Positions 3 through 31,175 of a stretch of 31,175 nucleotides of DNA are shown in pieces (position 1 is the first letter of the stretch; each line of letters starts with the position of its first letter). Origin of the DNA: a virus. Under the pieces are notes generated by a model. It had not been told where the DNA came from. It ran no database searches and saw only the letters and a program-made list of their open reading frames with translations. The position numbers and the translations under genes were made by a program. The stretch is taken from IMG/VR virus record IMGVR_UViG_3300032087_002392, positions 1 to 31,175 of that record; one strand, given 5' to 3'.

Positions 3-131
3 ATACCTGATATGATAGAACCATTAGCTCAAGGCTATGAAGAATTTAAAAATAGTGTAAAAGAAGACAGGCAACCATTAACATCATTAGAAAGATCATT
101 AAAGATACAAAGTTGGGTAAATCAATGGTAA
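3..131 (+). CDS. Gfo/Idh/MocA-type oxidoreductase, C-terminal end only (partial)
   Basis: Only the last 42 codons are present; the start lies before the window. The tail has the pattern EPL....EEF..SV.....PLTS.E..L.I..WV, which resembles the C-terminus of Gfo/Idh/MocA NAD(P)-dependent sugar dehydrogenases, where a conserved His/Glu-Pro-Leu stretch precedes a final helix. The stop overlaps the start of the DegT-type aminotransferase by 7 bp, so the two are translationally coupled. An oxidoreductase followed by an aminotransferase is the usual order for making an amino sugar from a keto-sugar nucleotide. The identification rests on a short tail and the neighbour, so it is tentative. Confidence 0.45.
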   Translation: MPDMIEPLAQGYEEFKNSVKEDRQPLTSLERSLKIQSWVNQW

Positions 132-1168
132 AATATTATGATATGACATCAATTACTGAGCAAGTAAAAGATATGACTAGGCTTGAACTAGATACAATAA
201 TGAACAGCAATAACTATATTTACGATACAAAAGATTTTGAAGAAAGATTTAGACAGTTTACAGGTGCTGGTTATTGTGTAGGTGTATCTAGTGGCACAGC
301 TGCCTTACACTTAGCATTAAAGGCAATAGGCATTAAACCAGGTGACCAAGTTGCCACGGTATCTCATACGTTTAGAGCCACAGCGGCTGCTATAAAATAT
401 GTTGGTGCTGAACCTGTTTATGTTGACATAGAGCAACTTTCTTATTGTATGGATCCAGATGAGTTAGAAAATACATTAGAAAATAATCCTACTATAAAAG
501 CAGTTATAGTTGTTCACTTATATGGTAATTCAGCAATGATAGAAAAGATTGCTGAGATGTGTAAGAAAAGAAATGTAAAACTAATAGAGGACTGTTCACA
601 GGCACACGGTACTCGTAGAGTTAATAAACACGTGGGTACTTTTGGTGACATAGGAACTTTTAGTTTTTTCCCAGGCAAAGGCATAGGTGCTTTTGGTGAC
701 GCTGGTGCTTGTATTACTATGAATAAAGAATACAATGATTATATCTCTGAAGCAAGAAGTTGGAAAGAAGATGAGATAGGTTATAATTATAGAATGTCAA
801 CAATTAATGGTAGATTTTTATATCATAAGATTGATAATTTTAAAAAAGTATTAGAAGAAAAAACATTAATTGCTAAAGAATATGACAGGCACTTTCGTAA
901 TTGTTCAGTAAGAGGTCAAGTAACACATAGTTACCACATTTACCCTATACTACACAAACATAGAGATAAACTTATTTCGTATGCTAAAGAAAAAGGCGTA
1001 GAATTAAAATGTCATTATGCTTTACCTGTACACAAACTACCTGCTTATAAAACAGATAAGTATTCACTACCTGTTACAGATTTAATATCATCACAGCAGG
1101 TAAGTTTACCAATTTATCCTGGCGTGGATTATAAAAAAGTTATAGAGGTAGTAAAACAATATGATTAA
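125..1168 (+). CDS. DegT/DnrJ/EryC1/StrS-family PLP-dependent sugar aminotransferase
   Basis: 347 aa. This family transfers an amino group, usually from glutamate, to a keto-sugar nucleotide for LPS, O-antigen or capsule synthesis. Seen: the cofactor-pocket stretch SSGTAALHLAL (about residues 55-65), the phosphate-binding EDCSQAHG with Asp156, and FFPGKGIGAFGDAG, whose Lys185 should form the Schiff base with PLP. The length is slightly below the usual 360-390 aa. I chose ATG 125 rather than the in-frame TTG 12 bp upstream; it overlaps the preceding stop. It overlaps the next gene by 8 bp, in an unbroken surface-sugar operon. The family is secure; the sugar substrate cannot be read from sequence. 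Confidence 0.92.
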   Translation: MVKYYDMTSITEQVKDMTRLELDTIMNSNNYIYDTKDFEERFRQFTGAGYCVGVSSGTAALHLALKAIGIKPGDQVATVSHTFRATAAAIKYVGAEPVYVDIEQLSYCMDPDELENTLENNPTIKAVIVVHLYGNSAMIEKIAEMCKKRNVKLIEDCSQAHGTRRVNKHVGTFGDIGTFSFFPGKGIGAFGDAGACITMNKEYNDYISEARSWKEDEIGYNYRMSTINGRFLYHKIDNFKKVLEEKTLIAKEYDRHFRNCSVRGQVTHSYHIYPILHKHRDKLISYAKEKGVELKCHYALPVHKLPAYKTDKYSLPVTDLISSQQVSLPIYPGVDYKKVIEVVKQYD

Positions 1169-2021
1169 TTTTATACCATTTTTTAAAAGAAAAGATTTTA
1201 ATGACGGCATTGAAGAACCTGAAGAAGTAAAACACTTCAATAGTTTTGGTGAAGGCTATGATTATTATTTAGATAGTTATAGGACATCTATGGGTTGGTA
1301 TCATACAAGAGACCAAGCAAAGTTTTCTGTAGCGAGTGATGAGATTACAGAGATAATGCCAGAGAGTGGTAGACCTTTTGATATGATAAGAGTAAAAGGT
1401 TTAAAAGATAAAAATATAATTGAGTCAAAAACTTTAGCAGAGACATATGTATTTAATGAGGCAGATATAGATGGCACAATTGTATCAAGTGGTTGTGACC
1501 ATTTAATTAATGGTAATTTTAACAAATGGGTTGATGATAATGATTTTGATATTGCGATACCATTAAGAAGAAAATCCAGAGTAAACAATGCTCTAATAAT
1601 ACAAAAGAAAAGAACTAAAAATACTATTGACTTTTTTAATTATAGACTAGAAAAGTTTTACGAACTTAAAGAAGAAAGTAGAGCGTGGTATGGTGACCAG
1701 AGAAGTTATGAAAGTTTATTTTTAGAAAAAGGTATACTAACTAAAGGTGTCAAAGGCTCTGGTAGATTAGGTTTACATAATATAATGGGTTGTAAAGTTT
1801 TAATTATACCTTATGGTGGTGATGTAGTAGGTACAAATATTGATGATGTTTATGGTCATTATTTTTTTCCTAACGCTTTGTTTTTTGACTACAAAGGCGA
1901 TAGAAAAAGAAAATATAAAATAGGGCTTGAAAGAGCAAGAGCTAAGTTTAGAGAGAATAAAGATCAATTTGCTAACAATGATGACTTCATCAATTTCAAT
2001 AGTAAAAACACCAATGAATGA
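1161..2021 (+). CDS. Putative GT-A-fold glycosyltransferase-like protein
   Basis: 286 aa, not firmly recognised. Residues about 102-140 read like the nucleotide-sugar and metal site of GT-A enzymes: an acidic DID, then SSGCDHLING with Asp113, then DFDIAIPLRRK. Further on, WYGDQRSYESLF (GDQ at 178-180) matches the GDQ..L element seen in many small GT-A glycosyltransferases, including the one at 7057 in this window. There is no signal peptide or membrane segment, so it is probably cytoplasmic. It sits between an aminotransferase and a sugar kinase-like gene, with 4-8 bp overlaps typical of this operon. The C-terminal 30 residues are low-complexity and Asn-rich. The function is inferred from these motifs and the neighbourhood. 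Confidence 0.5.
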   Translation: MINFIPFFKRKDFNDGIEEPEEVKHFNSFGEGYDYYLDSYRTSMGWYHTRDQAKFSVASDEITEIMPESGRPFDMIRVKGLKDKNIIESKTLAETYVFNEADIDGTIVSSGCDHLINGNFNKWVDDNDFDIAIPLRRKSRVNNALIIQKKRTKNTIDFFNYRLEKFYELKEESRAWYGDQRSYESLFLEKGILTKGVKGSGRLGLHNIMGCKVLIIPYGGDVVGTNIDDVYGHYFFPNALFFDYKGDRKRKYKIGLERARAKFRENKDQFANNDDFINFNSKNTNE

Positions 2022-2760
2022 ACACACTATTAAAGAGTTAAAAGGTTTTTCTGGTAGTAAAATATATTTAATGAGAAACAATACTGGTTTGTTTATTAGA
2101 AAAATGGAAAATGTTGATAGAAACTATATTAAGTTAAACGAACTATCTCAACATTTTAATGTGCCTAAAGTTTACACTTACAGTAATAACGTTTTAGATA
2201 TGGAATACATACACGGACTAGATATGAAATCTTATTTAGCTGTTAGAGATACAAAAAGACTTACAGATTTTTTAACAGATACATTATCTAAATTTAGTGA
2301 TGATGTACAAATGAACGATTATACAAGTGTTTATGTAGATAAACTAAAATATATAAAACTACCTAGTGAAATAATATTTACTAAAGAACAATTATTAGAA
2401 AAGTTACCTAAAAGATTACCTAGATCAAAATACTTTGGTGATCTAACACTAGAAAATATAATATATGGTGAAGATGGTCAGTTTTATTTTATAGATGGTA
2501 TGACAAGTGAATATGATTCATATATATTTGATATAGCTAAGTTAAGACAAGATTTAGAATGTAAATGGTTTTTAAGAGACACTAAATTATTATTAGATGT
2601 TAAAGTAGAAAACATACAAGATAAATTATTAGAAAAGTTTGAACTAGCAAATAATAATTATATACTAATATTAATGTTATTAAGAGTTTATAGATATACA
2701 AAACCATTTAGTAAAGAAGAGGCATTATTAATAAAAGAAATGAATAGACTATGGAAATAA
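1978..2760 (+). CDS. APH/choline-kinase-like phosphotransferase
   Basis: About 260 aa. The kinase-like fold is indicated by an N-terminal GFSGSKIYLM loop followed by FIRKM (possible ATP-binding Lys), a hinge-like LDMEYIHGLD, the catalytic segment YFGDLTLENIIY (Asp and Asn as in the aminoglycoside/choline kinase HGD....N motif, with His replaced by Phe), then FYFIDG with the metal-binding Asp. It would phosphorylate a small metabolite such as a sugar, choline or an amino acid. It is followed with a 10-bp overlap by a nucleotidyltransferase, as in LicA-LicC-like kinase plus cytidylyltransferase pairs, so the phosphorylated product may be activated next. The start is uncertain: ATG 1978, 1981 or 2014 are all in frame, and none has a clear ribosome-binding site. 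2014 would give an 8-bp overlap with the gene upstream. Confidence 0.7.
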   Translation: MMTSSISIVKTPMNEHTIKELKGFSGSKIYLMRNNTGLFIRKMENVDRNYIKLNELSQHFNVPKVYTYSNNVLDMEYIHGLDMKSYLAVRDTKRLTDFLTDTLSKFSDDVQMNDYTSVYVDKLKYIKLPSEIIFTKEQLLEKLPKRLPRSKYFGDLTLENIIYGEDGQFYFIDGMTSEYDSYIFDIAKLRQDLECKWFLRDTKLLLDVKVENIQDKLLEKFELANNNYILILMLLRVYRYTKPFSKEEALLIKEMNRLWK

Positions 2761-3776
2761 TTTTACCAGCGGCTGGATTATCAACTAGATTTCCTAATAT
2801 GAGACCAAAATTTACCTTAACTGATTACAAGGGTATGATGATGTTTGAGAGGGCAATACAATACTACATTGGCAAATACAACGTTACAATAGGAATATTA
2901 AAAGAACACGACACAAAATATAATATATCAACATACATAAAAAATACATATGATAAGCTTGTCAATGTAGTTGTATTGGACGAACTCACAACAGGACCTG
3001 CTCATACTGTATATGAAATACTAAAGAGGGCCAATATATCAGATGATAAAGAATTTTTTATAAAAGATTGTGATAGTTTCTTTGACCATATACCAACAGA
3101 GGGTAATTATGTTTGTGTATCAAGTATAACTGAACACGAGGTATTAAAAAGATTATCTAGTAAATCATTTGTCATATCAAACGACCAAGGTATTATAAAC
3201 GGTATCATAGAAAAAAAAGTGGTGTCAGATAAGTTTTGTGTTGGTGGTTATAAGTTTGATAACGTAGGTGTATATAAAAAAACTTATGAAAAACTACGAA
3301 ATAAAAATGTAAAAGAAATATTTGTATCTCATATTATACAAGATTGTTTAATGAACAAACATATATTTTTAGAAAAACAGATTACAAACTATGTAGATGT
3401 AGGTACGGCTGAAGATTGGTTTGAATACAATGATAGACCAGTTATATTCTGTGATATAGATGGCACATTAATTAAGGCACAACCTAAAGCAATGTACCAC
3501 GAGGCACCTGTGGCTTTAGAGGAAAATGTAAAGACACTATTAAAGTACCAAGACAAAGGCTCTCAAATAATATTTACCACAGCCAGATTTAAAAAATATG
3601 ATGATAGAACGAGAGAGATACTAGATAGTTTAGGTTTTAAAAATTATGAACTAGTGAGTGGCCTACAAAACGTTAGAAGAATTATAGTCAACGATTATAA
3701 CGAGGCTAACCCATATCCAAGAGCGACATCAATTAATCTAAAAAGAGATACAGATAATCTAAAAGACTTCATATGA
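2751..3776 (+). CDS. Fusion: sugar-phosphate-type nucleotidyltransferase plus HAD phosphatase
   Basis: 341 aa, two catalytic domains in one chain. Residues 1-225 are an NTP_transferase domain: ILPAAGLSTRF...RPK near the N-terminus (nucleotide-binding loop and Lys20) and KDCDSFF with Asp106 and Asp108 as probable metal ligands. Residues 230-341 are a small HAD-type phosphatase: FCDIDGTLI (nucleophile Asp235, Asp237), FTTAR (Thr276/277) and IVNDY (Asp315). The pair suggests that one polypeptide both activates a phosphorylated precursor and removes a phosphate from the same or a related intermediate. It overlaps the kinase gene upstream by 10 bp and the WavE-like gene downstream by 4 bp. The domains are clear; the substrate is unknown. 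The N-terminal loop is not the KdsB type. Confidence 0.82.
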   Translation: MEIILPAAGLSTRFPNMRPKFTLTDYKGMMMFERAIQYYIGKYNVTIGILKEHDTKYNISTYIKNTYDKLVNVVVLDELTTGPAHTVYEILKRANISDDKEFFIKDCDSFFDHIPTEGNYVCVSSITEHEVLKRLSSKSFVISNDQGIINGIIEKKVVSDKFCVGGYKFDNVGVYKKTYEKLRNKNVKEIFVSHIIQDCLMNKHIFLEKQITNYVDVGTAEDWFEYNDRPVIFCDIDGTLIKAQPKAMYHEAPVALEENVKTLLKYQDKGSQIIFTTARFKKYDDRTREILDSLGFKNYELVSGLQNVRRIIVNDYNEANPYPRATSINLKRDTDNLKDFI

Positions 3777-4588
3777 TAGATGTGGTTTATACTGGCGATA
3801 TAAGACACAATCAAAAGTTAAAGAAGAAGAATCATAACTTACTTTTGAACGAGTTGAGAAAATTAGGTGAGGTAAAAATAAGTGAGTTTTACAATGGTGA
3901 GGGTGAGAGAGATTTTACCGATTGCCCTTTTAATAGAGGTGGTAGAGACGCCTACTGGCATCCTGACAATTTAAGACGAGGTCAAGGTGGTGGTGTTCAA
4001 GTATGGCAGTACCTAAACGCTATACGCTTGACAAATAATCCATATGTGATAAGATTAAGAAATGATAACTGGTTTACAGAGAGCTCTATAAAAGTTATTA
4101 TAAAAGAACTTAAACAAATTATAAATGGTGAAAATGATTTATCTTACTTTGGATCAAATTGGTTAGAGGGCAATATGGGCACAGAGTATGAGGTTATGAA
4201 AAAATATAAGGGTGTAGAAGATTTTGTAATAGCTGTTAAACGAGAGGCCTTAAATAGTTATGATGAAGTAATGGCTAAATTAAAATCAATAGGTGTAAAT
4301 CATTTAAGAAGTGGTAATAAATGTTTTGAGTTTATAAGTAATAGTAAAAAGAAACACAAAGTTTTATGTAGAATATATTTGACAAGGCAAACATACGAAG
4401 ATTATCCTAGTGATAAACAAGTTTGTTATGATTATCTAGTAAGTTATTGTACTAGCAGAGACGGTATAAGTAAAATGAAACCTGCCTTTGATTGGTTTGA
4501 AAATTATGAGCCTTGGAAAAATATAAAATATAAAAAACAAGAACAAGTGAGAAATGAAAATGGATTTAGGTTTCGTCTATACAGGTGA
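3773..4588 (+). CDS. WavE-like LPS-synthesis/glycosyltransferase family protein, paralogue 1
   Basis: 271 aa. It opens with VVYTGD, a beta-strand followed by a Gly, and contains YVIRLRNDNWF (Arg94, Arg96, Asp98), similar to the R.RTD element of the WavE lipopolysaccharide-synthesis family. A second conserved block near the end reads RIYLTRQTY......CYDYLVSY. The next gene has the same blocks in the same order, so the two are a tandem duplication that has diverged. An insert around residues 45-75, rich in Gly and Arg (GGRDAYWHP, RGQGGG), is absent from the neighbour. It starts inside the stop of the nucleotidyltransferase-HAD gene (ATGA). The role is inferred to be sugar transfer or surface-glycan assembly. 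Confidence 0.55.
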   Translation: MIDVVYTGDIRHNQKLKKKNHNLLLNELRKLGEVKISEFYNGEGERDFTDCPFNRGGRDAYWHPDNLRRGQGGGVQVWQYLNAIRLTNNPYVIRLRNDNWFTESSIKVIIKELKQIINGENDLSYFGSNWLEGNMGTEYEVMKKYKGVEDFVIAVKREALNSYDEVMAKLKSIGVNHLRSGNKCFEFISNSKKKHKVLCRIYLTRQTYEDYPSDKQVCYDYLVSYCTSRDGISKMKPAFDWFENYEPWKNIKYKKQEQVRNENGFRFRLYR

Positions 4589-5261
4589 AAAAAGATTTGA
4601 AAAGATAGGTAGAGAAAATCACAAACTCTTATACAATACTTTATCAGAGTTTACATCATTTAAAATTTATGATGAATGTAAGAAAGATAGAAAAAGTGAT
4701 GAGTTTGTATTATCAGCACCAAATCAAATATGGGATTTTTATAAAGCTTTACCTGCTGTAAAAGAACGTATAGTAGTTAAGATGAGAACTGATATATGGT
4801 TTTCAAAGTCCAGTATACCACACGTAGTAAATGAAATATTAGCGACAATACAAGGCAAAAGAACATTTACATTAATAGGTTCAGAGTTAAAAACACACTA
4901 CAATAATGAATACGATACATACGATTTACCAGAATTTTGGGTTGGTCATAAGAGTGATAAGGCTAAAGTAAAAACGGCTGACTTTATTACAATTGCTGAT
5001 AAAGAAGCATTAAGACCAAAAGATGAAATATATAATATGTTAAAAACAGAAAAGTCTAAAAGTGGAAATAGACTATGGCAAAGAATAAGAAAGGGGCCTG
5101 GTAAATATTCTTTTGGTCAAATATATTTAATTAGAGCAAATTATAAACCTGTACATTTAAATGATAATTATATGGCTTATCAGTTTGCTGAGGGTTATAA
5201 TAAAAGAAAACATAAAGAGGCACTAAAATTTTATAATGAACATTTATCATCAAATAGCTAG
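4554..5261 (+). CDS. WavE-like LPS-synthesis/glycosyltransferase family protein, paralogue 2
   Basis: 235 aa and paralogous to the gene just upstream. GFVYTGEKRF matches its start; VVKMRTDIWFSKSSI (Arg78, Asp80) matches its RLRNDNWF block; GQIYLIRANY...NYMAYQFAEGY matches its last block. Here the R.RTD.WF motif is complete, so this copy is closer to the WavE pattern. ATG 4554 is used (MKMD...); ATG 4560 is also in frame. It overlaps the previous gene by 35 bp and the next by 26 bp. Two adjacent diverged copies suggest successive transfers of related sugars onto one acceptor, but acceptor and donor are unknown. Confidence 0.55.
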   Translation: MKMDLGFVYTGEKRFEKIGRENHKLLYNTLSEFTSFKIYDECKKDRKSDEFVLSAPNQIWDFYKALPAVKERIVVKMRTDIWFSKSSIPHVVNEILATIQGKRTFTLIGSELKTHYNNEYDTYDLPEFWVGHKSDKAKVKTADFITIADKEALRPKDEIYNMLKTEKSKSGNRLWQRIRKGPGKYSFGQIYLIRANYKPVHLNDNYMAYQFAEGYNKRKHKEALKFYNEHLSSNS

Positions 5262-6048
5262 AAAAGATTGTTTATCACACCAACTTTGGCCTCATTTTAA
5301 AAAAGGTTGGCCAGAGACAGATAAAATTGTACACTTTTTCTGGGGTTTAGGTGATGGCCAGACAGAGGATATTAGACAATGTATTAATAAAAAAGAAGAA
5401 TGGTGGTTTGTAGATACAGGTTATATTACTGAACAGATAACTAGATACCCTAGTCCTATTATACACGATCCTAGTAAAACTTATTTTAGAATTATAAAAG
5501 GTGGCCTTCATACAATAAGAGGTAAAGTAGGCAATGGTAAAAGATTAAATAAATTAAGATCACAAGGTATAGATGTAGATTTTAAAGGTTGGTATACAGG
5601 CGAGACAAAACATATATTACTTTGTCCTTCTTCACCTACGGTGACTTACCATATAAATGGCATATCACAACAAGACTGGATAAATCAGGTGTCAGCAGAA
5701 TTAAAAAAATATACAAAAAGAGAAATAAGAGTTAGAAATAAACCAAGACCTGGTAATCAATGGTGGAACAAAGACATAAAAGAAGATTTAAAAAATTGTC
5801 ATTGTCTAGTTACCAATATGAGTATGGCGGCCATAGACGCTGTATTAAACAAAGTACCAGCGATTACTCACAATATGAATGTAGCCTCACCGGTGTCAGG
5901 TAGAGATTTAGCAAAGATAGAAAAACCACTAAAACCTGGTAGAGAAACAATAAGAGAGTGGTTACAATTTGTCGTAGAGAACCAGTTTACTATGGCAGAG
6001 ATAAATAATGGTACAGCCCATAAAACTTTAACGGAGCAACAAGTATGA
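5236..6048 (+). CDS. GT-B-like surface-glycan glycosyltransferase, putative
   Basis: 270 aa. The N-terminal part (ARKDCLSHQLWPHFKKG) is not familiar. The C-terminal part, about residues 190-225, has NCHCLVTNMSMAAIDAV followed by KVPAIT and ASPVSG. This resembles the donor-binding half of GT-B glycosyltransferases and capsule/Kdo-transferase-like proteins, where a Ser-rich turn and a helix with A.DA lie next to a G.P.I strand. No signal peptide or membrane helix is seen. It overlaps upstream by 26 bp and touches kdsA by 4 bp; the direct coupling to kdsA makes a role in placing Kdo or a Kdo-like sugar attractive but unproven. Confidence 0.45.
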   Translation: MNIYHQIARKDCLSHQLWPHFKKGWPETDKIVHFFWGLGDGQTEDIRQCINKKEEWWFVDTGYITEQITRYPSPIIHDPSKTYFRIIKGGLHTIRGKVGNGKRLNKLRSQGIDVDFKGWYTGETKHILLCPSSPTVTYHINGISQQDWINQVSAELKKYTKREIRVRNKPRPGNQWWNKDIKEDLKNCHCLVTNMSMAAIDAVLNKVPAITHNMNVASPVSGRDLAKIEKPLKPGRETIREWLQFVVENQFTMAEINNGTAHKTLTEQQV

Positions 6049-6815
6049 TAATAATAGCAGGACCTTGTCAATTAGAATCAAAAGAACACGCCCTTACAAT
6101 AGCAAATAAAATGAAAAAGATTTGTGATGATAATGGCTTTGATTATATATTTAAGGCTAGTTTTGATAAAGCAAATAGAACTAGTATTAATGGTAAAAGA
6201 GGTTTAGGTTTAGAAGAAAGTAAAGAGATATTTAAAACATTGAGAGAACAAGGTTTTAGTACACTAACAGATGTACACGAGCCACATCAATGTGAAGAAA
6301 TGGCCAAGTTTGTAGATGTGCTACAGATACCTGCTTTTCTATGCCGACAAACAGATTTATTATTAGCAGCTGGTAAAACAGGTCTAATGATTAATGTAAA
6401 GAAAGGCCAGTTTCTAGCACCTTGGGATATGAAAGGTGTTGTAGATAAACTCACATCAACAGGTTTACCAAAAGAAAAAATTATGTTATGTGAAAGAGGC
6501 ACATTTTTTGGTTACAATCAATTAGTGGTAGATTACAGAGGCCTAATACAGATGAAAGAATTTGGTACAAAGATATGTATGGACGCTACTCATTGTGTAC
6601 AACAACCAGGTGGCAAAGGAGATAGTAGTGGTGGTAATAGAGACTATGCTCCATATATGGCCTACGCTTCAACAATATTTAAACCAGAAGCTATCTTTAT
6701 GGAAACACACGAAGACCCCGACAATGCTCCTAGTGATGGTCCGAATATGATAAAGTTAGACGATATGGAAAAAGTAATTAAAACAATTAAAGCTTATAAT
6801 GATGTAGCAGTATGA
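6045..6815 (+). CDS. kdsA: 3-deoxy-8-phosphooctulonate synthase (Kdo-8-phosphate synthase)
   Basis: 256 aa. It condenses phosphoenolpyruvate with arabinose-5-phosphate to Kdo-8-phosphate, the first committed step to the Kdo sugar of LPS inner core. All family blocks are present: IAGPCQLES, FKASFDKANRTS, TDVHE, QIPAFLCRQTDLL, VKKGQFLAPWDM, ERGTFFGYNQLVVDYRGL, DATHCVQQPGG and FMETHEDP. Cys8 in AGPC, the His of DATH, the Glu of METH and the Asp of PSDGPN match the four metal ligands of the metal-dependent class (Aquifex type); the E. coli metal-independent class has Asn in place of the Cys. The N-terminus is very short but starts where the barrel begins. It lies inside the surface-sugar operon with 4-bp overlaps on both sides. 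Confidence 0.95.
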   Translation: MIIIAGPCQLESKEHALTIANKMKKICDDNGFDYIFKASFDKANRTSINGKRGLGLEESKEIFKTLREQGFSTLTDVHEPHQCEEMAKFVDVLQIPAFLCRQTDLLLAAGKTGLMINVKKGQFLAPWDMKGVVDKLTSTGLPKEKIMLCERGTFFGYNQLVVDYRGLIQMKEFGTKICMDATHCVQQPGGKGDSSGGNRDYAPYMAYASTIFKPEAIFMETHEDPDNAPSDGPNMIKLDDMEKVIKTIKAYNDVAV

Positions 6816-7060
6816 AAATTAGATACTATAAAAACATTAACGGTTGGAGATGGTTAGGTTTTTTTATAGCAATGGCTAGTGTATCTATTTTATCATCAGC
6901 TAATATATCAACTCAATGGGTTGGTTGGAGTTTAAGTGTGGTGGCTTGTGTAATGTGGGTTTACTTTGGTTTAAAAGATAAAGATTGGCCAAGAGCTTTA
7001 ATGGAATTAATGTATTTAATATTAAGTATGAGAGCTGTTTACAATTGGATTAATTTATGA
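6812..7060 (+). CDS. Small three-helix membrane protein
   Basis: 82 aa, mostly hydrophobic. Three likely membrane helices: about residues 12-28 (WRWLGFFIAMASVSIL), 35-54 (WVGWSLSVVACVMWVYFG) and 60-80 (RALMELMYLILSMRAVYNWI). The last two helices resemble those of the small membrane protein encoded at 24946-25257 (GW..VG/W..FGL, then R.L...N/E..YLI.SM...YN), so this phage may carry two related copies. It overlaps kdsA and the next glycosyltransferase by 4 bp each. The function is unknown; being in the sugar operon, it could help membrane-bound glycan handling. Confidence 0.7.
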   Translation: MKIRYYKNINGWRWLGFFIAMASVSILSSANISTQWVGWSLSVVACVMWVYFGLKDKDWPRALMELMYLILSMRAVYNWINL

Positions 7061-7749
7061 TAAATGTAGTGTGTGTTAATTGGGGTTTAAAGTTTAAACC
7101 TGTCTATACTCAAAATTTATATAATATGGTAAAGCGACACCTTACCGTGCCATTTAAATTTATATGTTATACAAACCACATTAAATTACAAAAAGTAGTT
7201 AAAGAAGATAACTTTGAGGCAAGAAAATTACCATTTGCTGAAGAATATACAGGTTATTGGAACAAACTATCTTTGTTTAGTCCTGAAGCCAATCTTATGG
7301 GCCCCTGTTTATATTTTGATTTAGATGTGGTCATACTAGGTAATATAGATTGTTTTGCTAACTTTGGTAATGATGAGACTTTTGGTGTAATGAGAGACTT
7401 TGGTCAACCTCAGATGTTTTATAATTCTAGTATATTAAAGTTTAATAATTCAAATGCTACTGCTGGTATCTGGAAACCATTTTTAGAAAAGCAGTCAGAA
7501 TTTATGAGACTACAAGGCGACCAAAATGTCATAACAGATTTAGTTGATAAAAAACCATTAGTTAAAAATGTAAAGATATTTGATGATACTTGGACACAAT
7601 CATACAAATGGCTAGACCGTAGTCAGACCAGATTTCATAAGAATAGTTGGACCTTTGAACAATCAAAGAATGCTAAAGTGGCTATCTTCCACGGCAATCC
7701 AAAACCACACGAATCAGACCAGGAATGGGTAAAATCCAACTGGAAATAA
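7057..7749 (+). CDS. GT-A glycosyltransferase (GT8-like), last gene of the sugar operon
   Basis: 230 aa. NVVCVNWGLKFKPVY at the start is the nucleotide-binding strand. CLYFDLDVVILGNID carries a textbook DxD (Asp88, Asp90) for metal and nucleotide-sugar binding. LQGDQNVITDL (Asp155) is the GDQ acceptor-side element, and a late His in IFHGNPKPH fits the third metal contact of retaining GT8-type enzymes. The length is normal for compact phage and bacterial members. It ends the operon; the following 150 bp carry an inverted repeat and a new promoter. Donor and acceptor are not predictable from sequence. Confidence 0.8.
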   Translation: MINVVCVNWGLKFKPVYTQNLYNMVKRHLTVPFKFICYTNHIKLQKVVKEDNFEARKLPFAEEYTGYWNKLSLFSPEANLMGPCLYFDLDVVILGNIDCFANFGNDETFGVMRDFGQPQMFYNSSILKFNNSNATAGIWKPFLEKQSEFMRLQGDQNVITDLVDKKPLVKNVKIFDDTWTQSYKWLDRSQTRFHKNSWTFEQSKNAKVAIFHGNPKPHESDQEWVKSNWK

Positions 7750-29014: not shown

Positions 29015-29749
29015 ATGGCATTACCAAAAATTGAAACGCCGACATATGAACTGACTTTACCATCACAAGAGATTAAAGTTAAGTACAGGCCGTTTTTAGT
29101 AAAAGAAGAAAAGATACTTTTAATGGCAATGGAATCTCAAAAAGCAGATGAGATTTTTCAAGCAACAAAACAAATAGTAGCGTCTTGTACGTTTAACAGT
29201 TTGAAAGTAGAAGACTTACCAACATTTGATTTAGAATACATCTTTTTACAGATTAGAGCTAAATCAGTAGGTGAGATCACTAAATTTAAAGTGTTGTGTC
29301 CAGATGATAAAAAAACTTATGCTGATGTTGAAGTTGACTTAACAAAAGTTAATGTTGAAGTTGATGATAAACACACAAACAAACTAGTAGTAGATGAAAA
29401 AAGAAATTTAGGTGTTGTACTTAAATATCCAACAATGAATGTATTAAAATCAGGCACTATGGAAAACCCTACGACAGAGCAGATATTTGATGTTCTAACG
29501 GAGTGTGTTGACCATATATACGAGGGCGATAAAATATATCCAGCGAAAGATAGTACACAACAAGAAATAAAAGAATTTTTTGAAGATTTATCACAAGATT
29601 CTTTTGTAAAAATTAAATCATTTTTTGACACTATGCCTCGTTTAAGACACGAGATTGAGGTAACAAATCCAGTTACCAATGTGAAAAGTAAAGTAGTTTT
29701 ATCAGGACTAAATGATTTTTTCGAATCAGCCTCGCCCACAATAGCCTAG
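29015..29749 (+). CDS. 26: gp26-type baseplate hub protein
   Basis: 244 aa (T4: 208). LPKIETPTYELTLPSQEIKV and YRPFLVKEEKILLMAMESQK, ASCTFNSLKVEDLPTFDLEY and LQIRAKSVGEI are the standard N-terminal blocks; SFVKIKSFFDTMPRLRHEIE and LSGLNDFFESA close it. In T4, gp26 is needed for assembly of the central hub. AAGGAG is 6 bp before ATG 29015. Just before the stop, the codons GAT TTT TTC form a slippery T TTT TTC, and the -1 frame continues for 63 more codons with a conserved-looking sequence, so a longer gp26 product is likely (see next entry). Confidence 0.88.
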   Translation: MALPKIETPTYELTLPSQEIKVKYRPFLVKEEKILLMAMESQKADEIFQATKQIVASCTFNSLKVEDLPTFDLEYIFLQIRAKSVGEITKFKVLCPDDKKTYADVEVDLTKVNVEVDDKHTNKLVVDEKRNLGVVLKYPTMNVLKSGTMENPTTEQIFDVLTECVDHIYEGDKIYPAKDSTQQEIKEFFEDLSQDSFVKIKSFFDTMPRLRHEIEVTNPVTNVKSKVVLSGLNDFFESASPTIA

Positions 29750-29910
29750 AGGCCTACTTCGAAACTAATTTTGCTCTGATACAACATCATAAATATAGCT
29801 TGAGTGAACTAGAGAATCTAATGCCTTGGGAACGAGACGTTTATGTGTCTTTGTTGTCAAATTGGATTAAACAAGAAAACGAGAGAAAAAGAGAGAAAAA
29901 AAATGGCTGA
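29716..29910 (+). CDS. Extension of gp26 reached by -1 frameshift (gp26-X)
   Basis: Open in the -1 frame from 29716 to TGA 29908-29910. It reads ...NSLEAYFETNFALIQHH, then KYSLSELENLMPWERDVYVS and LLSNWIKQENERK: a conserved-looking helical domain with M-P-W-E-R-D. No ATG precedes the domain (first ATG 29821, inside it), so translation from an own start would lose most of it. The slippery heptamer TTTTTTC is 29716-29722; a GCCTC/GAGGC stem (29729-29733 with 29749-29753) follows after six bases, and two TTCGAA palindromes can extend it. This is the layout of tail-assembly frameshifts such as lambda G/GT. It ends 8 bp into the next gene. Confidence 0.7.
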   Translation, partial: FFRISLAHNSLEAYFETNFALIQHHKYSLSELENLMPWERDVYVSLLSNWIKQENERKREKKNG

Positions 29911-30232
29911 TGATATAAAAAAGGTTGATGATATAAAAGTCGCAGAACCAAAACAAAAAATACAAGTTGATTTAGAGGTAGACACTTCCGTTAAAGACCT
30001 AGGTGTCAACCCATACGCTAAACTAATTCATATGGCAAGAGCTGTTGACGCTTGGAGAATATTTCCAAGATTGTTCTTAACAGTTTACATAATCTTATTA
30101 TATAAATGTGTAATTTGGTATATGAACTTATCAGGTCCTACTATGGAACAAAGTGGTTTAATCAGTATCGTAGTTGGTGCTGGCGCTGCCTGGTTTGGTT
30201 TATACACAGGAACAAGTAAGAGTAAGAAGTAA
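29903..30232 (+). CDS. Holin-like small membrane protein in the baseplate operon
   Basis: 109 aa from ATG 29903, which overlaps the end of the gp26 extension by 8 bp; earlier in-frame starts fall inside that frame. A charged N-terminus of about 40 residues (DDIKKVDDIKVAEPKQKIQV) precedes YAKLIHMARAVDAWRIFPRL and two membrane helices, about 58-76 (FPRLFLTVYIILLYKCVIWYM) and 84-102 (SGLISIVVGAGAAWFGLYTG), with a basic SKSKK end. Similar small proteins sit near baseplate genes of marine T4-like phages. Two helices and a charged tail resemble holins by topology only; virion or lysis role is undecided. Confidence 0.65.
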   Translation: MADDIKKVDDIKVAEPKQKIQVDLEVDTSVKDLGVNPYAKLIHMARAVDAWRIFPRLFLTVYIILLYKCVIWYMNLSGPTMEQSGLISIVVGAGAAWFGLYTGTSKSKK

Positions 30233-30357
30233 TGGAAATTACAGCAGAGTTATTACAAGTAATAAATGATACAAGTTGGACTGATGGTATTGGTACACTT
30301 GTTGTATTACTAGTTGCCTATGCTGTGTACAAGTACATTAACAAAAGGTTCAAATAA
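30232..30357 (+). CDS. Very small single-pass membrane protein
   Basis: 41 aa. Acidic N-terminus (EITAELLQVINDTSWTDG) outside, then GIGTLVVLLVAYAVYKYI as one membrane helix and a basic end (NKRFK). It starts and ends in TAATG overlaps with both neighbours, which supports translation. Paired with the two-helix protein upstream, it could be a partner such as an antiholin-like peptide, but no family is recognised. Confidence 0.65.
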   Translation: MEITAELLQVINDTSWTDGIGTLVVLLVAYAVYKYINKRFK

Positions 30358-31175
30358 TGGCTGTATTAGAATCAGATATAAAAGCTCTGTTTAAAACTAT
30401 AACTAGCGAGACTATGAAGACGGTCAGCGCAGGTCAGAAAACTATCATATCACCTACAACAGTTAGAAATCTAGCAAAAGAGATAACTGAACAGGCAGAG
30501 AGTGGTAGTATTTTTAAGTTTGAAGAAGCACTTAAAAAAACAGAGTCTATAATTGATAAATTAGGTATTAATTTAGATGATTTTAATAAAGGCCTATCAG
30601 ATAGAATAAAACAACTTGGCGAACAAAAAGTTAAAGCAGAGGCCGAAGTACAAGAGTTAAGACAAAGTAACATAGCGGCTGAAGTAAAAACTATCAAAGA
30701 AGGCAAAGAGTTTAGAATAGAAACTAATATACTTACTAGAAAAGAAATTAAAGAACGAACTTCTTTACTAAACAATCAAATAAAACAGACAGACAAAAGA
30801 GAAAAAGAAATCATCAAACAAAGAGAAAAACTTTTAAAGAAAGATGAACTTACAGTAGCAGACAAAGAAAAAATAATTGCTGATGAAAAAGAAATCACAC
30901 AACGAAGAGCTGCTATAGCTACAGAATCAGAAACATTAGGTATAGATAATACTGCCGATACAGGTGGTGATAGATTAGAACTGCCACCAATGTTGGCAGG
31001 TTTTGTTGACGCTTTAATGGGACCATTTAACGCCATTGGTGAGGCAGGTATGATGTTAAAAGATACTGTTATGGGTATAGGCGAGACATTTATGTTTTTA
31101 GGTAAGGGTGCTTTGAAAGTTGTAGTAAAAGCATTTAGAGCTTTATCATTTATATTAAAACCAATACCAATAGCA
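30357..31175 (+). CDS. Large tail or baseplate-hub protein, N-terminal 273 codons (partial)
   Basis: Open to the end of the window. Residues about 55-185 are coiled coil with dense Lys and Glu (EEALKKTESIIDKLGINLDD, KQLGEQKVKAEAEVQELR, NNQIKQTDKREKEIIKQREK). From about 205 the protein changes to Gly/Met/Phe-rich hydrophobic segments (MLAGFVDALMGPFNAIGEAG, MMLKDTVMGIGETFMFLGKG, ALKVVVKAFRALSFILKPIP). Coiled coil followed by such segments is typical of tape-measure and related hub proteins; in T4 the length-determining protein is gp29. The position after gp26 agrees. The rest of the gene is needed to decide between tape measure and another tail protein. Confidence 0.65.
   Translation, partial: MAVLESDIKALFKTITSETMKTVSAGQKTIISPTTVRNLAKEITEQAESGSIFKFEEALKKTESIIDKLGINLDDFNKGLSDRIKQLGEQKVKAEAEVQELRQSNIAAEVKTIKEGKEFRIETNILTRKEIKERTSLLNNQIKQTDKREKEIIKQREKLLKKDELTVADKEKIIADEKEITQRRAAIATESETLGIDNTADTGGDRLELPPMLAGFVDALMGPFNAIGEAGMMLKDTVMGIGETFMFLGKGALKVVVKAFRALSFILKPIPIA

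Follow-up and report, generated by a model that had tools for sequence, protein, structure and literature searches.

A gp26 gene of a T4-like pelagic myovirus and its probable -1 frameshift extension into a gp51-type domain: short and long forms of a predicted tail assembly chaperone

The tail assembly chaperone (TAC) genes of several phage groups offer close parallels to the locus described here. In phage lambda a short chaperone, gpG, and its -1 frameshift extension, GT, are encoded just before the tape-measure gene (PMC5009743). The TAC locus of Vandenendeviridae and Andersonviridae has a conserved T-run at the 3' end of TAC-N, an open -1 frame, and the tape-measure gene downstream (PMC12846349). 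TAC genes of T4-like phages were identified by Vladimirov, Gautam & Davidson (2022; Virology 566:9-15), according to two papers that cite this work (PMC10885494 and PMC12846349), the second of which credits it with the T-rich slippery sites in T4-like TAC-N genes; in the account given by the first, some T4-like phages have separate short and fused long genes instead. The proteins of T4 itself, gp26 and gp51, have been listed as hub assembly chaperones (PMC3004832). In none of the papers searched was frameshifting demonstrated experimentally for these phages.

The window, by which we mean the whole 31,175-base virus record analysed, comes from a T4-like pelagic myovirus. Its gp26 gene (29015..29749, + strand, taken as frame 0) encodes a short product, TAC-N, of 244 aa and ends with a TAG stop codon at 29747-29749; at the level of sequence profiles the protein belongs with T4 gp26 (PF12322, E=1.5e-61; phrog_150, E=4e-68), and it is matched by 753 phage records. 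Towards the other end of the window, positions 113-7749 appear by eye to hold a sugar or surface-polysaccharide gene block (aminotransferase-like, nucleotidyltransferase-like and glycosyltransferase-like), and 6045-6815, likewise judged by eye, reads like KDO-8-phosphate synthase.

Just ahead of the gp26 stop is the heptamer T TTT TTC (29716..29722, + strand), set in the slippery X XXY YYZ phase as GA[T TTT TTC]. A sequence-only reading of this DNA had picked out the same heptamer, 25 bp before the stop; the site and its phase hold good, the gap being 24 nt. The -1 frame is then open, as that reading had it, for 63 codons (29719-29907) up to a TGA at 29908-29910. The product of this frame (29719..29910, + strand), FRISLAHNSLEAYFETNFALIQHHKYSLSELENLMPWERDVYVSLLSNWIKQENERKREKKNG, is the gp51-like C-terminal domain, TAC-C, which matches phrog_634 ('baseplate hub assembly catalyst') at E=6e-29, and its fusion to gp26 through the frameshift would be 298 aa long. 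Beyond the gp26 stop, substitutions at codon positions 1/2/3 of the -1 frame stand at 0.25/0.11/0.47 and dN/dS in relatives is about 0.12, a mark of purifying selection; this pattern indicates that the frame is translated.

Alignment of the locus in relatives, proposed in the sequence-only reading as a check on conservation, bore out both heptamer and -1 frame. In each of the 80 closest IMG/VR relatives TTTTTT[C/T] keeps this phase and the -1 frame encodes the domain, and an in-phase TTTTTT[C/T/G] is present in 208/208 loci outside the Ackermannviridae-type phages. These 208 loci, assembled from six collection scans and 17 named phages with Ackermannviridae-type loci counted apart, include pelagiphages, cyanophages and phages of Vibrio, Aeromonas, Stenotrophomonas, Pseudomonas, Rhizobium, Sinorhizobium, Caulobacter and Nitratidesulfovibrio. 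Chance provides few such sites: in-phase T6 heptamers number 6 in the 7,902 codons of the window, and 0.008 would be expected within the last 11 codons of a gene. At terminal slippery sites in the other window genes the -1 frame never extends more than 3 codons past the stop, gp26 being the sole exception.

Synonymous bases were compared in 111 representatives less than 90% identical to one another, and those of the heptamer are fixed in 111/111. The codon preceding TTT is GAT, TCT, AGT, AAT or GCT, always ending in T (log10 P -22), and the first Phe of the heptamer is always TTT, against a gp26 background of 73% TTT and 27% TTC (log10 P -20); both values suppose independent sequences, and overstate that independence because the sequences are related by descent. 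At a control motif in the same gene, FFxTMP, TTC and TTT are used 40 and 35 times. Since the preceding amino acid varies with its T fixed, and the Phe is always TTT, the constraint acts on nucleotides. Twenty-one Ackermannviridae-type loci (L086, L087, L090 and L220-L237; Klebsiella May, Vibrio YC, Vibrio D493 and relatives) lack a T6 heptamer, yet a gp26 homologue is followed there by the gp51-like domain in the -1 frame; the stop region of the May type reads ATTTTCAT[TC]TAAT[TG]TTTGA, and several of these loci have no nearby ATG. As they keep the -1 arrangement without the heptamer, another form of coupling presumably operates somewhere in the superfamily.

The heptamer is followed by a stem-loop, GCCTC/GAGGC (29729..29753, + strand), whose arms occupy 29729-29733 and 29749-29753 around a 15-nt loop, the GCCTC arm starting exactly six bases after the heptamer. 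All this agrees with the sequence-only reading, which further placed the gp26 stop within the loop and had flanking TTCGAA palindromes lengthen the stem. Most of the TAG is indeed in the loop, but the 3' arm opens with its last G, which leaves the stop only partly within the loop; the palindromes are present, at 29720-29725 and 29758-29763, and the outer GAA/TTC pairs could form in 27 of 36 stem-bearing relatives, but these pairs are absent from the consensus fold.

The stem-loop is found in 36 of 48 window-clade representatives and missing in the other 12. Its fold in the window has an energy of -8.5 kcal/mol, against -3.0 kcal/mol for a synonymous null with codons drawn according to gp26 codon usage; none of 100 recodings was as stable, and the mean z of the window-clade group against synonymous recoding is -3.1. 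A null whose codons are drawn from the -1 frame itself is biased, and gives a window-clade mean z of about -0.8 to -0.9; by dinucleotide shuffling the window stem is not unusual (z -0.56). RNAalifold revealed no covariation or compensatory change in the window-clade stem, because the stem columns are invariant. Codon choice within the stem is nearly fixed: its Leu is CTC in 34/36 (background, 1.2% of Leu codons) and its Glu GAG in 36/36 (background 25%), while all four letters turn up at the third position of the Ala codon, immediately beyond the stem. Cyanophages have hairpins of unrelated sequence at the same place (mean z -2.5 against synonymous recoding), that of S-PM2 being 14 base pairs long. 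The window thus possesses the downstream RNA stimulator that is common, but not universal, in the lambda G/GT class. Rfam and tRNA scans returned no match.

Upstream, 8 nt before the heptamer, AGGA (29704..29707, + strand) is a tentative candidate for an internal Shine-Dalgarno-like stimulator. Such 4-mers precede the heptamer in 61% of the 111 representatives, compared with 37 +/- 4% after synonymous recoding, an excess that is only suggestive because it is partly due to an invariant Gly codon. It is conceivable, though we would not favour it, that the T4-like TAC frameshift has a three-part signal of the dnaX kind, comprising an internal Shine-Dalgarno-like element 8-10 nt upstream, the T6 heptamer and a downstream hairpin, with the hairpin replaced between clades by others unrelated in sequence and the heptamer unchanged in all T4-like phages except those of T4's own group and Ackermannviridae.

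The -1 domain could instead be expressed as an independent small gene, gp51, with a start codon of its own or through stop-start re-initiation, in line with many database entries: separate gp51 CDSs are annotated in Mosig, S-PM2, HTVC008M and others, and an ATG overlaps the gp26 stop in D525, Mendera, RHph_N34, Cr30 and phiM7. The structure of the frame makes this very unlikely. In the window a -1-frame TGA (29713..29715, + strand) abuts the heptamer and closes the frame to upstream initiation, and further on the frame first meets a start codon, TTG, 84 nt after the heptamer begins and already inside the conserved domain, in keeping with the claim of the sequence-only reading that this coherent domain has no usable start. 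With the TGA adjoining the heptamer and conservation extending back to the first (slip) residue of the domain, no start codon could supply it whole. Every one of the 208 loci has a -1-frame stop at 3-54 nt upstream, and 207 of them lack any ATG, GTG or TTG between that stop and the heptamer, the exception being L196; on these grounds an own start codon was rejected. The annotated starts differ in place from phage to phage, and a gene with its own start does not account for the frozen synonymous bases of the heptamer. Five T4-like loci (L085, L088, L089, L093 and L094) carry, besides the heptamer, an ATG overlapping the gp26 stop (TAATG/TGATG), and the C domain might there also arise alone. Public gp51 annotations (L082 5762-5896, L083 4720-4893, L097 4253-4390) start at differing internal sites and lose the beginning of the conserved domain; a joined CDS would be a better gp51 annotation than such internal-start calls.

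Slippage might be transcriptional rather than ribosomal, the polymerase rather than the ribosome generating the fusion on the T-run. The site is a homopolymer, reaching T7 or more in 38/208 loci and T8 in HTVC008M, but in most loci the run is just six T and then a C, which is short for efficient polymerase slippage, and the fixed X XXY YYZ phase together with the codon-constrained downstream stem fits slippage by the ribosome; we judge the transcriptional route even less probable than a separate gene. That the open frame is a pseudogene, a chance occurrence or an assembly error would be a natural concern with a metagenomic contig, and the sequence-only reading had itself named a resequencing error in the T run as grounds for refutation. 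Such an error is excluded by L001, 98% identical to the window, and by hundreds of other records with the same arrangement of frames; the arrangement is common to 208 loci, isolate genomes among them, and purifying selection acts on the -1 frame, facts that together reduce the chance of this explanation practically to nil.

To identify the products, 110 fusion sequences, each joined over the slip site, were combined in one profile. T4 gp26 aligns only to the N part of this profile (HMMER 1e-24), whereas the alignment of T4 gp51 passes the junction and covers the whole fusion, C domain included (HMMER 2e-16; hhalign 97.7%); T4 therefore has two separate genes, 26 for the short form and 51 for the long one. 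The suggestion of the sequence-only reading that the extension might stand in for T4 gene 51 or 28 is thus correct for gp51, though the match is to the entire fusion and not only to the -1 domain; a relation to gp28 was rejected (hhalign probability 0.2). AlphaFold models the short form with pLDDT 87, leaving its last six residues (239-244), those after the slip site, disordered. Residues 1-95 of the model match 3fgx (Z 8.0), the HK97 tail assembly chaperone 2ob9 (Z 7.7), YqbN 3klu (Z 6.6) and 5ir0 (Z 5.3), the next match scoring 2.5; these are modest Z values for the N-terminal domain alone, and among the matches only 2ob9 is titled a TAC. Given the resemblance of the N-terminal fold to the HK97 chaperone, the products are best read as TAC-N and TAC-NC, and not as the baseplate-hub structural proteins originally supposed. 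The C domain is modelled as three helices (pLDDT 78); Foldseek found no usable match to it on its own, and a PDB sequence search with both alignments yielded nothing meaningful.

Downstream, a small predicted membrane protein (29903..30232, + strand; phrog_10198), 48% identical to Mosig QOI69097 over 58 aa, overlaps the end of the -1 frame. After it comes the start of a probable tape-measure gene (30357..31175, + strand), which runs off the window; in HTVC008M and Cr30 the annotated tape-measure gene has this position, the gp26/gp51 pair lying one small gene before it. The truncated 30357 ORF resembles Mosig, S-PM2 and T4 gp29 only weakly in sequence, and the HTVC008M tape-measure protein used as query detected no homologue in the window.

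We consider it highly probable that one gene gives rise, by -1 ribosomal frameshifting, to a short and a long tail assembly chaperone, gp26 being the TAC-N of this T4-like pelagic myovirus; comparative evidence strongly supports the programmed frameshift of lambda G/GT architecture put forward in the sequence-only reading. Most ribosomes would terminate at 29747-29749 to give TAC-N, while a minority, paused at the GCCTC/GAGGC hairpin when on T TTT TTC, would shift one base backwards, from TTT to TTT in the P site and from TTC to TTT in the A site, and continue in the -1 frame as far as 29908, producing the 298-aa TAC-NC with its helical domain of gp51 type. On the model of lambda gpG/gpGT, coating of the tape-measure protein would fall to the N part and recruitment of tail-tube subunits to the C domain. 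Such a mechanism would show how abundant T4-like viruses of the ocean encode the long tail chaperone that is a separate gene 51 in T4, explain why the gp51 start is annotated inconsistently among the genomes of cyanophages and pelagiphages, in their hundreds, and support a chaperone role over a structural one for gp26 and gp51.

Lambda G/GT combines a short chaperone with a -1 extension, as is proposed for the window. Lambda uses a heptamer other than T TTT TTC, the one seen in the window with a clear hairpin after it, and the likeness drawn here is one of architecture. The Vandenendeviridae/Andersonviridae TAC locus differs in its GTTTTT motif and belongs to a different phage lineage. T4 fits the type with separate short and fused long genes, a point tested independently here: its long form, gp51, is a gene of its own, of 249 aa, on the strand opposite gene 26 and made without frameshift, unlike that proposed for the window. 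The T4-like TAC-N/TAC-NC genes of Vladimirov et al. (2022), a study known to us through the papers that cite it, are of the same gp26/gp51 family as the window. As represented there, the idea is not new: the window system belongs to this published class as a well-supported added member, to whose description the present analysis contributes the synonymous constraint on the stem, the Shine-Dalgarno-like element and the metagenomic survey.
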